DNA of 5,560 nt from an uncultured Bacteroides sp. (GTDB taxonomy: Bacteria > Bacteroidota > Bacteroidia > Bacteroidales > UBA11471): contig CAJLYN010000157.1 in the NCBI GenBank assembly GCA_905210875.1, forward strand, positions 1 through 5,560, given 5' to 3'. Shown here piece by piece: positions 1,911 to 5,474 of the stretch (position 1 is the stretch's first letter; each line of letters starts with the position of its first letter). The notes under the pieces are model-generated. The model was not told the DNA's origin, made no database searches, and worked only from the letters and a program-made list of their open reading frames with translations. A program made the position numbers and the translations under genes.

Positions 1911-3101
1911 TTATGATATTCTAATGTGTTCTTTTATGCGTCGGAGAGATTCTTCCAGAGCCTTTTGGTCGGCACAAAGAGAGATGCGCACGTAACGCTC
2001 ACCCTGGCTGCCGAATATGATGCCGGGCGTGATGAAGACACGGGCTTCGTAGAGAACCTTGTCGGCCAGTTCGGTACAGCTGTTCATGGTATCGGGAATC
2101 TTGGCCCAGAGGAACATGCCACGTTGTTTTGGGTCGAACGTGCAGCCCATAGCTTCGGCAATCTGTTCGGCAATGACCCGCCGTTCCCGGTAGATGCGGT
2201 TGTTGCTTTCGTACCAGGAGGCCGGAAGCGACAGAGCGTGGGCGGCAGCCTCCTGCATGGGACGGAATGTACCCGAGTCGATGTTGCTCTTCACACGCAG
2301 TATCCAGGAGACGAATTGGGCGTTTGAGGCCAGCATGCCTACGCGCCACCCAGGCATGTTGTGCGATTTACTCATGGAGTTCATCTCGATGCATATCTCT
2401 TTGGCGCCTGGTATCGACAGAAGACTCATTGGGTTATCGTTGAGTATGAAACTGTAAGGGTTGTCGTTGACTATGATGATGTTGTGGCGTCGCCCGAAGT
2501 CGACCAGCTTTTCAAACAGTTCATGCGAGGCCGGAGCGCCGGTCGGCATGTGCGGATAGTTGACCCACATGAGTTTCACTCCCGAGAGGTCGCATTTGTC
2601 GAGTGCGTCAAAGTCGGGTTGCCACCCGTTCTCTTCGCGCAGTTCATACGGAATGATGCGGGCTTCGGCCAGTCGGCTTACCGAGGTGTAGGTGGGGTAT
2701 CCCGGGTTAGGAACCAGCACGCCGTCGCCGGGATTGAGAAAAGCCAGTGAGATGTGCAGAATACCCTCTTTCGAGCCGATGAGCGGTTGTATTTCACAAC
2801 TCGGGTCGAGTTCTACGCCATACCATTTGTGGTACCAGTCGGCAAAGGCTCGTCGCAACTCGGGTATTCCCACATAAGGTTGATAACCGTGGGTGTTGTC
2901 TTTGCGGCTTTCGCGGCAGAGAGTCTCAATCGTCTCGGCATGGGGTGGACGGTCGGGGCTGCCTATTCCGAGGCTGATGACATTCAGCCCGCGGGCATTC
3001 ATATCGGCTACTTCTTTGAGTTTCTTTGAGAAGTAGTATTCGCTTATCTGGTTTACCCGGTTGGCGGGAACGATATTACAGGTTACATTTTGATTCGGCA
3101 T
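1911..3101 (-). CDS. PLP-dependent class I/II aminotransferase, probable aromatic (or aspartate-type) aminotransferase
   Basis: A 396-residue fold-type I aminotransferase. Visible signatures are SLGIGSPD (43-50), GYPTY (134-138), NYPHMPTG (181-188), D213 and Y216 for cofactor contacts, SMSKSHNMPGWRVG (242-255) with K245 as the PLP Schiff-base lysine, and YVRISL (370-375) with R372 as the likely substrate carboxylate-binding arginine. It resembles the AspC/LL-diaminopimelate aminotransferase-like subgroup. Its place between pheA and the DAHP synthase suggests it transaminates phenylpyruvate and 4-hydroxyphenylpyruvate, or prephenate; that substrate assignment is inferred from context only. The ATG at 3101 is preferred because GGAG lies just upstream of it; an in-frame TTG at 3110 would add three residues. 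With the ATG start, the gene overlaps the end of pheA by 26 bp in another frame, implying translational coupling. One oddity is that the Asn normally just before PTG is Met185. Confidence 0.9.
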   Translation of the reverse strand: MPNQNVTCNIVPANRVNQISEYYFSKKLKEVADMNARGLNVISLGIGSPDRPPHAETIETLCRESRKDNTHGYQPYVGIPELRRAFADWYHKWYGVELDPSCEIQPLIGSKEGILHISLAFLNPGDGVLVPNPGYPTYTSVSRLAEARIIPYELREENGWQPDFDALDKCDLSGVKLMWVNYPHMPTGAPASHELFEKLVDFGRRHNIIIVNDNPYSFILNDNPMSLLSIPGAKEICIEMNSMSKSHNMPGWRVGMLASNAQFVSWILRVKSNIDSGTFRPMQEAAAHALSLPASWYESNNRIYRERRVIAEQIAEAMGCTFDPKQRGMFLWAKIPDTMNSCTELADKVLYEARVFITPGIIFGSQGERYVRISLCADQKALEESLRRIKEHIRIS

Positions 3102-3918
3102 ATTCTCCAAGTATTTTAAGTTCTTTGGTCAGAGGGGTAATGGCATCGACGGCCTGGTGGTAGCGCAGACGGTCTTCGTATACGACGTCGATGTAGAACT
3201 GGTATTCCCATTCGCGGCCGATGATGGGCAGCGACTGTATTTTGGTCAGGTTCATTTTGTAGAATGACAGAATCGAGAGTACCTGCGAGAGGCTGCCTTC
3301 GGTGTGCGGCAGGGTGAAGACGAGGCTCGATTTGTTGCAAACTTTGCCTTTACGCAGGTCGTCGGCCTGCCAACGGTTCGACAAGACGAGGAAGCGGGTC
3401 GAGTTGTGCTTGTTGGTCTCGATGCCTTCCTGCAAGATTTTCAGGCCATACATGGCGGCAACATCTTTTCCGCAGATGGCGGCCCGCCCGTGCAACTTGT
3501 GGCGGAATATGTCTTCGGCGCTCTTGGCTGTGTCTTCGGCTTCGACCGCTTTGAGCCGAGGGTGGGCGTTGAGAAACTCGCGGCACTGCATCAGAGCGAT
3601 AGGGTGGGAGTTGACTTCGGTAATGTCGTCCCAGTCGTCCTCGGGCAGGCACATAATCGAGTGGGAGATATGCAGGCGGGCTTCTCCTACGATTTGCGTG
3701 TCGCTCTCGCGCAGCAATTCATGGTTTTGCAGCAGGCTGCCGGCGATGGTGTTCTCGATGGCCATCAATCCGATGACAGAGTCATCTTTCTTTATGTTTG
3801 AGAAAATATCTTCAAAAGTGGCACAGTAGATGACTTCGATTTCTTCTCCGCTGAAGTAGCGATGAGCGGCGATGTCGTGAAAAGAACCTTTGGCTCCTTG
3901 TATGGCTATACGTTTCAT
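3076..3918 (-). CDS. pheA: Prephenate dehydratase with C-terminal ACT domain (PheA), first gene of the operon
   Basis: This 280-residue monofunctional enzyme converts prephenate to phenylpyruvate, the Phe branch step. The catalytic domain (about 1-180) shows IQGAKGSFHDIAA (6-18), MAIENTIAGSLLQNHELL (52-69), NSHPIALMQC (103-112), EDTAKSAEDI (128-137) and NSTRFLVL (172-179), where T174-R175-F176 is the family TRF motif with the catalytic Thr. An ACT domain (about 197-275) follows, which in relatives binds Phe for feedback inhibition. The usual Phe-binding motifs are altered here: TEGSL (206-210) stands where PGAL is typical and QSLP (228-231) where ESRP is typical. There is no fused chorismate mutase; that activity is supplied by the downstream fusion gene. 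The ATG at 3918 lies 14 nt after the U-tract of terminator 2, so expression should depend on antitermination in the leader. The 3' end overlaps the aminotransferase start. Confidence 0.95.
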   Translation of the reverse strand: MKRIAIQGAKGSFHDIAAHRYFSGEEIEVIYCATFEDIFSNIKKDDSVIGLMAIENTIAGSLLQNHELLRESDTQIVGEARLHISHSIMCLPEDDWDDITEVNSHPIALMQCREFLNAHPRLKAVEAEDTAKSAEDIFRHKLHGRAAICGKDVAAMYGLKILQEGIETNKHNSTRFLVLSNRWQADDLRKGKVCNKSSLVFTLPHTEGSLSQVLSILSFYKMNLTKIQSLPIIGREWEYQFYIDVVYEDRLRYHQAVDAITPLTKELKILGEYAESKCNL

Positions 3919-3932
3919 ATTGGTTGGTTATT

Positions 3933-3967
3933 AAAAAATCCCACTCTTCCGGAGGGAAGGTGGGATT
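3933..3967 (-). terminator. Attenuator terminator 2, directly before pheA
   Basis: On the minus strand AATCCCAC (3967-3960) pairs with GTGGGATT (3944-3937), and CTTCC (3959-3955) pairs with GGAAG (3950-3946). This gives 8 + 5 bp with one bulged A (3945) and a CTCC loop. The right arm runs into six consecutive T residues (3938-3933), so this is a strong intrinsic terminator. It sits 14 nt before the pheA start codon, between promoter and gene, where a simple end-of-operon terminator would make no sense. Its left arm overlaps the stop codon of leader peptide 2 (3968-3966) by two bases. Confidence 0.92.
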
Positions 3968-4013
3968 AACATATCATGGAACTTTTGAGGCACATACGAT
4001 TGCCTCCCACCTT
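3957..4013 (-). promoter_or_regulatory. Antiterminator 2, competing with terminator 2
   Basis: Minus-strand AAGGTGGGA (4013-4005) is perfectly complementary over 9 bp to TCCCACCTT (3965-3957), which is most of the left arm of terminator 2. The two structures therefore cannot coexist. The upstream arm lies in codons 22-24 of leader peptide 2, just past the aromatic run that ends at 4029. A ribosome stalled in that run would leave the arm free; one that moves on would melt it. A smaller hairpin, GAGGCA (4006-4001) with TGCCTC (3992-3987) and an 8-nt loop, could fold inside the antiterminator and shorten its effective loop. Pairing was worked out by eye; no folding energies were computed. Confidence 0.85.
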
Positions 4014-4076
4014 GACGCCTTGTTGCATAAAGTAGAAAAAGTAAAATCCGTAAAATCGAAAATATCGTTGTGCCAT
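3966..4076 (-). CDS. Leader peptide 2 of the aromatic operon (36 aa, Phe/Tyr-rich)
   Basis: A 36-codon reading frame starts at ATG 4076, 17 nt after the U-tract of terminator 1, and stops with TAA at 3968-3966. Residues 5-16 read YFRFYGFYFFYF: six Phe and four Tyr among twelve codons, with no Trp in the whole peptide. The remainder (17-36) is an unremarkable tail containing the antiterminator arm in codons 22-24. The product is presumably not a functional protein but a ribosome-stalling sensor of charged tRNA-Phe and tRNA-Tyr. No promoter element is seen between terminator 1 and this frame, so it should be transcribed only by polymerase that passed terminator 1. No obvious Shine-Dalgarno is present; the upstream stretch is A/T-rich, as is common in Bacteroidetes. 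Compared with leader 1 it is twice as long and runs into its terminator. Confidence 0.85.
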   Translation of the reverse strand: MAQRYFRFYGFYFFYFMQQGVKVGGNRMCLKSSMIC

Positions 4077-4093
4077 ATAATTCGGTATATATT

Positions 4094-4121
4094 AAAAAAT
4101 CCCGTCTTGTGAACGGGATTT
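4094..4121 (-). terminator. Attenuator terminator 1, between the two leader peptides
   Basis: On the minus strand AAATCCCGT (4121-4113) pairs perfectly over 9 bp with ACGGGATTT (4105-4097); a U-G wobble can extend it to leave a CACAA loop. Six T residues run through 4099-4094. It lies after leader peptide 1 and before leader peptide 2, with no complete structural gene before it. Its last 14 nt, GGGATTTTTTAATA, are identical to those of terminator 2. Confidence 0.92.
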
Positions 4122-4159
4122 CATTATTTTATCAATTGTCGGCCACACAAAATCCCGTT
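4112..4159 (-). promoter_or_regulatory. Antiterminator 1, competing with terminator 1
   Basis: Minus-strand AACGGGATTT (4159-4150) is perfectly complementary over 10 bp to AAATCCCGTT (4121-4112), which contains the whole left arm of terminator 1. The same strand segment AAATCCCGT can thus pair either upstream (antiterminator) or downstream (terminator). The upstream arm begins within two nucleotides of the TAA of leader peptide 1 (4163-4161). A ribosome at that stop would cover the arm and favour termination, whereas one stalled in the aromatic codons would leave it free. This matches the classical three-arm arrangement of amino-acid biosynthetic attenuators. Pairing was worked out by eye. 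Confidence 0.88.
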
Positions 4160-4182
4160 TTTACTTTTTGTTAAAGTAAAAA
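4158..4182 (-). promoter_or_regulatory. Possible pause hairpin within leader peptide 1
   Basis: Minus-strand TTTTTACTTT (4182-4173) and AAAGTAAAAA (4167-4158) form a perfect 10-bp inverted repeat around an AACAA loop. It spans the last aromatic codons, the stop codon and the first bases of antiterminator arm 1. In classical attenuators a 1:2 pause hairpin occupies this place and synchronises polymerase with the first ribosome. Nearly all pairs are A-U, so stability is doubtful, and part of the symmetry follows from the Phe/Tyr/Lys codon composition. Confidence 0.5.
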
Positions 4183-4217
4183 TAGAAAAAATAGGTGTAA
4201 CCGAAAGAATGGTTCAT
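4161..4217 (-). CDS. Leader peptide 1 of the aromatic operon (18 aa, Phe/Tyr-rich)
   Basis: The frame from ATG 4217 to TAA 4163-4161 encodes MNHSFGYTYFFYFYFNKK: five Phe and four Tyr in 18 residues, seven of them consecutive (residues 9-15), and no Trp. It starts roughly 20 nt after the predicted transcription start and stops directly before antiterminator arm 1. This geometry and composition mark it as the sensing peptide of a transcription attenuator for the Phe/Tyr genes downstream. Scarcity of charged tRNA-Phe or tRNA-Tyr would stall the ribosome and allow readthrough of terminator 1. There is no clear Shine-Dalgarno; the upstream region is A-rich (AATAAAAACA), as is usual for Bacteroidetes starts. 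It is too short for ordinary gene prediction. Confidence 0.9.
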   Translation of the reverse strand: MNHSFGYTYFFYFYFNKK

Positions 4218-4243
4218 AGTCGATGCTTGTTTTTATTACGCAA

Positions 4244-4251
4244 CAAAGATA
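4244..4251 (-). promoter_or_regulatory. Promoter -7 element of the aromatic operon
   Basis: Minus-strand TATCTTTG fits the Bacteroidetes -7 consensus TAnnTTTG exactly. It lies 26 nt before the start codon of leader peptide 1 and predicts a transcription start near 4240. No good -33 TTG is seen at the expected distance; the upstream region is T-rich. It is the only match I found in the leader region that could drive pheA. Confidence 0.75.
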
Positions 4252-4413: not shown

Positions 4414-4433
4414 TCTATAATAATAGATTGCAT

Positions 4434-4886
4434 ATGAAAAAGATTCTTCAAGATTTCAAGGCATTTGCCATGCGAGGAAATGTCATTGATATGGCAGTGG
4501 GTGTAATTATCGGAGGGGCATTCGGGAAGATTGTCTCTTCGCTTGTGTCGGATATCATCATGCCGTTGATAGGAGTACTTATAGGTGGCGTTAATTTTAA
4601 AGACTTGAAATGGACGTTTCACTCTCCTTCTCTCGGTAGTGATATACCGGCTCGGGAGGTGGCGGTCAATTATGGAAATTTCATACAGGCGACATTTGAT
4701 TTTTTAGTGATTGCCTTTTCGATATTTCTCTTTGTAAAACTCATATCTCGTTTTTCGCGTAAAAAAGCTGCCGAGGAAGCTGCCAAGCAGGCTTCGGCTG
4801 CGCCCCCGACTGTTTCGGACGAGGTAAAGTTATTGCAGGAAATACGCGATTTACTCAAAGAAAAGAACCCATACCGAGAGAAATAA
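4434..4886 (+). CDS. mscL: Large-conductance mechanosensitive channel MscL
   Basis: This 150-residue inner-membrane protein forms a homopentameric pore that opens under membrane tension and releases solutes during hypo-osmotic shock. The N-terminal amphipathic helix and first transmembrane segment match the family closely: [20 protein letters not shown], then [18 protein letters not shown], then SDIIMPLIG (about residues 14-50). A periplasmic loop follows (about 51-77). The second transmembrane helix is about residues 82-104 ([20 protein letters not shown]), with a basic patch RFSRKK (106-111) after it. The C-terminal cytoplasmic helix (about 126-143, [13 protein letters not shown]) is the usual bundle-forming segment. 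Length is slightly above the typical 130-145. ATG 4434 is chosen over an in-frame TTG at 4428 because it gives the canonical MKKIL start. It is divergent from the aromatic operon and functionally unrelated to it. No hairpin terminator is visible after it. Confidence 0.97.
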
Positions 4887-4953: not shown

Positions 4954-5415
4954 ATGAATGCGGTACGAGAATCGATGTTGAAATTGATAGCAGAGGCTTT
5001 CTGTGAAGCTATTGAGAAAGCAAAAGACGATAGCACTTATTCGTTGACTGATATGTATGTCGGATTCCGACCCGAGGAGCTCTCTTTATCTCTTTACGAT
5101 GATAAAGATGTCTTGTTGCAGCAAATTACCCTAGATGAATGTGAAGACCTCAAAGAGGTCGCTGATGCACCCACGTCGGAAGGTCTGGTAAAACTATTGC
5201 GAGAGGCCTTGAATATGCCCGAGGTCGATGCTGCGTTTTCCTCTCTCGATACAGTGGCTCCGGTTTCGGTGGTTCTCATTAACGAAGAGAAAGAGCCGGT
5301 GTGTGAGTTGAAGACTTTCGACAATGAGATGCTTTTTCTCGAAGACGATTTGTTGAAAAAGATGGGAGAGGAGTTGGACGATTTTTTTGAAAAGTTGATG
5401 TCCGACGTTAAGTAA
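4954..5415 (+). CDS. Small acidic cytoplasmic protein of unknown function
   Basis: This 153-residue protein is not recognised. It has no signal peptide, membrane segment or obvious metal or nucleotide motif. It is strongly acidic, with clusters such as DECEDLKEVAD (61-71) and EDDLLKKMGEELDDFFEKL (130-148). The predicted pattern is a helical N-terminus (1-24), a short beta-like stretch (about 34-60), a helix around 76-87 (EGLVKLLREAL), beta-like strands around 103-122 (PVSVVLINEEKEPVCELKTF), and a C-terminal acidic helix. This could be a small soluble alpha/beta domain or a partner-binding protein. Two cysteines (C17, C63) plus C117 are not arranged as a metal site. The start is supported by the promoter 17 bp upstream, and the frame runs to a strong terminator, so it is a real gene. 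Context, with mscL upstream and a convergent gene downstream, gives no functional hint. Confidence 0.8.
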   Translation: MNAVRESMLKLIAEAFCEAIEKAKDDSTYSLTDMYVGFRPEELSLSLYDDKDVLLQQITLDECEDLKEVADAPTSEGLVKLLREALNMPEVDAAFSSLDTVAPVSVVLINEEKEPVCELKTFDNEMLFLEDDLLKKMGEELDDFFEKLMSDVK

Positions 5416-5442: not shown

Positions 5443-5474
5443 AAAAGGTCTGCCATTCACGGCAGACCTTTTTT
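5443..5474. terminator. Bidirectional intrinsic terminator between convergent genes
   Basis: AAAAGGTCTGCC (5443-5454) and GGCAGACCTTTT (5461-5472) form a perfect 12-bp stem with an ATTCAC loop. On the plus strand the right arm ends in six T residues (5469-5474); on the minus strand the reverse reading is likewise followed by T-rich sequence. It is placed 28 bp after the acidic gene and 28 bp after the predicted end of the convergent partial gene, so it probably serves both. Confidence 0.92.

Follow-up and report, generated by a model that had tools for sequence, protein, structure and literature searches.

Background

The classical trp, his and pheA leaders of enterobacteria consist of a codon-rich short ORF with an antiterminator and a terminator that share one arm. 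Tandem T-boxes are also known, and ErmB reportedly has two leader peptides. Tandem riboswitches were described for B. clausii metE (PMC3641672). According to the available part of the same paper, the two attenuators of Salmonella mgtCBR respond to different signals, one to ATP and the other to proline, with additive effects, and their stem-loops are unlike intrinsic terminators (PMC3641672).

In Bacteroidetes, amino-acid operons of Flavobacterium psychrophilum have been proposed to be controlled by leader-peptide attenuation (PMC9723704), and the Bacteroid-trp motif (RF01692) was reported as a leader RNA motif (PMC2864571), as far as the available parts of these papers go. Little on leader-peptide control in Bacteroidetes was found in the literature searched, and mgtCBR was the only described tandem transcription attenuator in it; most subscription papers lay outside this search. 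Within that scope, the search fits the statement of an earlier sequence-only reading of this DNA that tandem peptide attenuators had not been described in Bacteroidetes.

The window, i.e. the whole stretch of 5,560 nucleotides analysed here, likely belongs to a Bacteroidales bacterium. Behind a single predicted promoter, its pheA leader carries two complete attenuator-like units arranged serially, each of them probably a ribosome-mediated transcription attenuator that senses charged Phe and Tyr tRNA.

Organization of the leader and the operon

The two aromatic-rich ORFs were present on the minus strand at positions 3933-4251 of the window, each with its terminator hairpin and antiterminator pairing (Table 1), and the coordinates, lengths and codon counts given for the leader parts by the sequence-only reading were right.

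Table 1. Features of the pheA leader, its operon and the neighbouring gene in the window
Feature	Position	Strand	Description
Predicted promoter -7 element	4251-4244	-	TATCTTTG, upstream of uORF1
uORF1 (leader peptide 1)	4217-4161	-	MNHSFGYTYFFYFYFNKK; 18 aa, 5 Phe + 4 Tyr
Unit 1 hairpin 1:2	4182-4158	-	TTTTTACTTT (4182-4173) with AAAGTAAAAA (4167-4158)
Unit 1 antiterminator arm 2	4159-4147	-	Pairs with arm 3
Unit 1 arm 3	4124-4112	-	Partner of arm 2
Terminator 1	hairpin 4121-4097, U tract to 4094	-	Intrinsic-type by sequence
uORF2 (leader peptide 2)	4076-3966	-	MAQRYFRFYGFYFFYFMQQGVKVGGNRMCLKSSMIC; 36 aa, 6 Phe + 4 Tyr
Unit 2 antiterminator arm 2	4013-4005	-	AAGGTGGGA, within uORF2
Unit 2 arm 3	3965-3957	-	Partner of arm 2
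Terminator 2	hairpin 3967-3937, U tract to 3933	-	Intrinsic-type by sequence
pheA	3918-3076	-	Prephenate dehydratase (Pfam PDT, 185 bits)
Operon gene 2	3110-1911	-	Class I/II aminotransferase (Pfam)
DAHP synthase gene	1897-821	-	DAHP synthase fused to chorismate mutase (Pfam)
tyrA	810-37	-	Prephenate dehydrogenase-like (Pfam)
mscL	4428-4886	+	Divergent gene on the other side of the leader

In unit 1, an antiterminator of 13 bp including G-U pairs (a core of 9 Watson-Crick pairs) was the alternative to an 11-bp terminator stem, and in unit 2 an antiterminator of 9 bp was the alternative to a terminator of 8 + 5 bp. Hairpin 1:2 of unit 1 is a pairing between the final Phe/Tyr codons and the ORF end. 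uORF2 read over arm 2 and stopped at arm 3, whereas in the classical layout the stop lies before arm 2; because of this position, a ribosome ending at the uORF2 stop would briefly cover the terminator arm.

TAnnTTTG, the Bacteroidetes-type -7 motif by which TATCTTTG was recognised, preceded unit 1 in 21/24 tandem leaders. The possibility of another promoter between the units was considered and rejected, as TAnnTTTG occurred there in 0/24. A pairing across the units (GGGATT with AATCCC, 6 bp in the window) was dropped as not conserved, because by eye it was absent in L112 and L135. T-boxes and riboswitches were rejected as well, with neither the window nor 12 related loci matching any Rfam family at its gathering score, and Bacteroid-trp (RF01692) gave no match in the window at gathering score.

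By their Pfam matches the operon genes serve both Phe and Tyr, and their order was identical in all five loci examined (L001, L003, L009, L029 and L044). The aminotransferase ORF, as listed, has a TTG start inside pheA and overlaps the pheA end by 35 nt (3076-3110). Elsewhere in the window, an uncharacterised ORF (4954-5415) had no Pfam match and was followed by a terminator-like hairpin, aaaaggtctgcc..ggcagaccttttt, seen by eye at 5443-5474.

Detection of units and chance controls

A unit was called by a classifier with three criteria: an ORF in which a run of 12 codons includes 6 or more for Phe/Tyr, a terminator seen as a G+C hairpin and then a U run, and an intervening stretch that could pair over at least 6 bp with the first arm of the terminator. 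The ORF starts reported in this way can fall too early, as in unit 2 of L083. In pheA leaders of at least 500 nt, one or more units were identified in 190 of 217 (one in 167, two in 23, none in 27), while dinucleotide-shuffled leaders gave a unit in 0/651 and other windows of the same loci in 1/2032, two units being found in none.

The aromatic content of both ORFs could also be compared with chance. With the base composition of the leader, and uncorrected for the choice of ORF, at least 9 Phe/Tyr of 17 codons as in uORF1 had a P of 3.7e-5, and at least 10 of 35 codons as in uORF2 a P of 5e-3; for the dense part of uORF2 (at least 10 of 13 codons) P was 9e-8, likewise from base composition and uncorrected for ORF choice.

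Distribution among Bacteroidales

A set of 222 distinct upstream regions of pheA was assembled from 80 genome-contig loci, the window and an order-wide search, which gave pheA in 179 of 393 genomes and in which, among the matches listed, the upstream sequence was examined in 146 genomes. G244, G332 and G013 (incomplete matches) and G146 (match from base 213 of its contig) were left out, L081 and L082 were excluded as repeats of L001 and L003, and regions that did not differ in their last 150 nt were taken as one. One unit was identified in 169 regions, two in 24 and none in 29. Thus predicted leader-peptide attenuators precede pheA in 193 of the 222 Bacteroidales regions examined, and the two-unit arrangement is not unique to the species of the window. 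Hairpins kept with the aromatic codons lost, an outcome which had been named in advance as speaking against attenuation, were not the rule, both being kept in those 193 regions.

For the 29 regions without a unit, an aromatic-rich ORF was present in 16, with the terminator or the arm below thresholds or truly absent, and the other 13 had no such ORF in the piece examined, the upstream sequence being short in L137, L019 and L002 (15, 143 and 503 nt). In the scan, L170 and L211, both full-length regions, had a hairpin without an aromatic-rich ORF. Ten 700-nt upstream regions had no aromatic-rich ORF in their last 500 nt by the scan (L065, L105, L110, L133, L134, L136, L140, L170, L204 and L211); here the leader may be lost or moved, or pheA may be internal to an operon.

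The closest relative, L001, a MAG whose PheA is 99% identical, had both units with the same arms as the window, and so did G003 (PheA 90% identical). In the family of the window, in which a PheA match was obtained in five of seven genomes and none in the other two, G002, G006 and G007 carried a single unit resembling unit 1. uORF1 was conserved in L001 and L083, and was similar to the single leader of L003/L082/L084/L085. A comparison of one and two gates in matched sequences would be possible, since the window's clade and these three single-unit members differ in gate number.

Outside this family, tandem leaders were found in four of four genomes with a pheA start in the family of G392 (the fifth having an incomplete match only), and in three of three in the family of G094; the families of G276 and G202 each had one tandem among three genomes whose pheA start was complete. 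Twelve further tandem genomes were present in the order sample, and the predicted tandem doubling recurs in several other Bacteroidales lineages. L180 (genome G282) had a PheA frame with one internal TAG and one TAA, with a tandem leader upstream (L126). No relative of PheA was found in viral contigs by a scan.

On a 110-row PheA tree with the no-unit rows not counted, the two-unit state required at least 10 changes, the tree being of a quick type with SH-aLRT only and flagged long branches, on which gain and loss are indistinguishable. The second units of twelve leaders (three in the window's clade, four in the family of G392, three in the family of G094, and G276 and G202) shared an invariant TACTTTATG followed by AGGTG, and look related because of it. 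The second units of the remaining twelve tandems had different sequences, which suggests more than one origin of the tandem arrangement.

Comparable leaders were predicted before other amino-acid operons, using ORF and hairpin criteria without the antiterminator criterion or a chance control. hisG was present in 58 of 119 genomes searched, and among 30 loci fetched, one His-rich ORF was seen in 22, none in seven and two in one. The last, L314 (genome G071), had two His-rich ORFs, MNKHFAYGHHGIHHSMNCR and MTFNHNIEHHHGHLNHCD, with a terminator-like hairpin behind each, and would be a tandem leader of a his operon. Four genomes with tandem pheA leaders (G001, G003, G094 and G067) had a single His-rich ORF before hisG. 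Among 30 regions upstream of ilvD, a loose scan identified an Ile/Leu/Val-rich ORF in 27, and 23 of these also had a terminator-like hairpin. A possible tandem leader was observed in L344 (genome G112), where a terminator-like hairpin lies between two Ile/Leu/Val-rich ORFs; a second terminator was not found there by the scan.

Covariation of the helices

The alignment for unit 2 contained 12 leaders (9 distinct rows), with the arms put in register by hand, and in that for unit 1 the tandem sequences were joined by 11 single-unit leaders from relatives (22 rows, chosen by the analyst). Each helix was compared with 500 shuffles, which do not preserve the relatedness of the rows, and the rows themselves were analyst-chosen; all the shuffle counts below are to be read accordingly.

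In unit 2, arms 2:3 were paired in 93.3% of cells and arms 3:4 in 98.4%, with three and four pairs, respectively, changed on both sides. For arms 2:3 the covariation score was reached by 2/500 shuffles, the both-side changes by 11/500 and the pair types by 178/500; the corresponding counts for arms 3:4 were 0/500, 1/500 and 5/500. When the helices of unit 2 were slid by 1 to 3 columns, 0 or 1 pairs were changed on both sides. In unit 1, 92.4% of cells were paired in arms 2:3 and 99.4% in arms 3:4, both-side changes being seen in 13 and 8 cells. Here the covariation score was reached by 0/500 shuffles for both helices, the both-side changes by 93/500 (2:3) and 19/500 (3:4), and the pair types by 499/500 in each. 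For arms 2:3 and 3:4 of both units, the paired cells were reached by at most 2/500 shuffles.

Hairpin 1:2 of unit 1 was paired in 95.5% of 200 cells over the 22 chosen leaders (reached by 2/500 shuffles), with only one pair changed on both sides (437/500) and pair types reached by 500/500. In L135, a C to U change in arm 3 was matched by changes in both partner arms.

The sequence-only reading had proposed to look in related leaders for compensatory changes in both stem pairs and for conservation of both peptides. Such changes were found in helices of both units, and the aromatic codons were kept in the three species of the window's clade. Its main claim, two complete units in series before an aromatic operon, holds as a real arrangement, kept in three species and covarying in relatives.

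Predicted position of the ribosome and folding of the leader

Arm 2 started at a median of 12 nt past the last Phe/Tyr codon in 217 units (5th-95th percentile 7 to 15), and at 3-20 nt in 98.6% of them, compared with 31% of the arms that shuffled segments yielded. In the window, this distance was 13 nt in unit 1 and 15 nt in unit 2. The leading edge of a stalled ribosome is given as 12-15 nt from the P site in the available part of PMC3641672, and arm 2 would begin about where such a ribosome ends. Arm 3 was common to both helices over at least 5 nt in 209/217 units. The length of the antiterminator pairing was unmatched by 20 shuffled segments in 141/217 units, and matched by at least one in 76/217. 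A TGTATG-like stretch recurs after arm 2 by eye, and might be a polymerase pause site.

AGGTG was invariant in 12 tandem leaders. The reading frame over arm AAGGTGGGA differed between leaders with the RNA sequence kept, and since the frame varies, it is the RNA and not the peptide that is conserved there.

The stops of the two ORFs differed in position: that of unit 1 lay before arm 2 or touched it in 21/24 tandems, and that of unit 2 lay beyond arm 2 in 20/24. Counted by lineage, the later stop was in unit 2 in 9/10 (exception L234), with p 0.02 in a sign test which was chosen after seeing the data and with lineages set from the PheA tree. Single leaders resembled unit 2, with the stop beyond arm 2 in 119/169. 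As unit 1 stops before arm 2 and unit 2 beyond it, release of the ribosome may let the upstream gate leak but not the downstream one.

The states could not be told apart by folding the full leader at equilibrium, and partial transcripts were therefore folded. In a partial transcript without arm 4 and with a ribosome halted at the final aromatic codon, the predicted probability of 2:3 was 0.94 and 0.93 in the two units of the window, and exceeded 0.5 in 214/217 units. With arm 2 covered, the predicted probability of 3:4 exceeded 0.5 in 217/217. In full-length RNA with a stalled ribosome, the terminator beat the antiterminator in both window units, and 2:3 was more probable than 3:4 in only 58/217 units. 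Because the full-length RNA favours the terminator even when the ribosome is stalled, the scheme would depend on co-transcriptional folding. In the absence of a ribosome, arm 2 was predicted to be tied up by upstream sequence in the window (0.53 in unit 1, 0.97 in unit 2); among all units this was so in only 73/217, and the antiterminator exceeded 0.5 in 129/217.

Proposed mechanism and alternative explanations

When charged tRNA is ample, the ribosome would pass the aromatic codons and cover arm 2, arm 3 would pair with arm 4, and transcription would stop near 4094, with polymerases that escape the first gate stopping near 3933. Under a shortage of Phe or Tyr, the ribosome would stall on the aromatic run; arm 2, left exposed directly ahead of the ribosome, would then pair with arm 3 and the polymerase could proceed, and a second ribosome would repeat the test on uORF2. 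If no ribosome is loaded, the terminators would form in this leader, because arm 2 is predicted to be tied up by upstream sequence. The pass probabilities of the two gates would multiply, giving lower basal expression, and owing to this multiplication tighter repression and a steeper response could be expected than from one gate.

It is unlikely that one unit alone regulates, with the other left over or acting as a constitutive brake with little amino-acid response. A decaying second unit is not expected to show both-side pair changes in both helices, which unit 2 does over 12 leaders, and the aromatic codons, arms and spacing of both units are kept in the three species of the window's clade; such a reading would nevertheless fit with the occurrence of unit 1 alone in G002, G006 and G007, the 169 of 222 regions with a single unit, and the unusual stop of uORF2. 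The second gate would not be essential in any case, since those family relatives manage with one. Both gates likely answer the same signal, as both ORFs mix Phe and Tyr. A division into one gate for Phe and one for Tyr, in an operon that serves both amino acids, is a good deal less probable still: the mean Phe fraction is higher in unit 2 than in unit 1 (0.61 vs 0.55 in 24 tandems; Wilcoxon p 0.03 on non-independent rows), but both ORFs are mixed in 24/24 tandems, and in the window the counts are 5F/4Y and 6F/4Y.

Least probable, and about equally so, are two further readings. If the peptides were functional small proteins and the hairpins ordinary terminators, the likeness of the peptides in near relatives would be accounted for, but arm AAGGTGGGA keeps its RNA sequence while the frame changes, the peptide ends vary, and no incoming transcript needs stopping since the upstream neighbour gene is divergent. 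If another sensor (a T-box, riboswitch or protein) decided and the peptides were incidental, the tight spacing from the aromatic codons to arm 2 would not be expected, and no Rfam family appeared at gathering score in the window or the 12 related loci; no observation spoke in favour of such a sensor.

Beyond the two proposed ribosome-mediated gates of the window, a broader reading is put forward tentatively, and we regard it as rather doubtful: Bacteroidales may have repeatedly built serial two-gate attenuators from gates of two designs, in which the upstream peptide stops before arm 2 and the downstream one reads over it. The upstream leak could then be set by ribosome release, and the downstream leak would be independent of release. 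If true, the multiplied effect of both gates would provide near-switch control of aromatic amino-acid synthesis without a repressor protein.

Serial attenuators for the same signal would offer a natural test of attenuation-sensitivity theory, the log-scale gains of the two gates being expected to add and their leak to multiply; in the available part of the text on this theory (PMC1183508), the words 'tandem' and 'serial' are absent. The survey also extends the predicted leader-peptide attenuators, with those before pheA joined by His-rich leaders before hisG and Ile/Leu/Val-rich leaders before ilvD.

Comparison with known systems

Like the enterobacterial leaders, the pheA leader has a codon-rich ORF, a shared arm and an operon making the same amino acid; it differs in having two serial units, Phe and Tyr mixed, and a stop that often lies beyond arm 2. 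Against Rfam Phe_leader (RF01859), unit 1 spanned the whole model weakly (26.1 bits, E 0.028), and Thr_leader was about as good (24.2 bits, E 0.02), both being far below the gathering scores, which are 55 bits. Tandem riboswitches and T-boxes likewise place serial units in one leader, but there the RNA senses ligand or tRNA directly, without a peptide. The F. psychrophilum leaders and Bacteroid-trp are likewise Bacteroidetes cases, of proposed leader-peptide attenuation and of a leader RNA motif, while a tandem arrangement is unmentioned in the available parts of both papers (PMC9723704, PMC2864571).

The closest likeness is to Salmonella mgtCBR, where, as far as the available part of the paper goes, two translated short ORFs (mgtM and mgtP) lie in one leader of one operon, each tied to alternative stem-loops as in the pheA leader (PMC3641672). 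In contrast to mgtCBR, both units of the pheA leader carry like codons and end in hairpins of the intrinsic-terminator type (PMC3641672, available part). As predicted from its sequence, the pheA leader would thus be a variant of already known tandem attenuation, with the same kind of signal probably sensed twice and with terminators of the intrinsic type.
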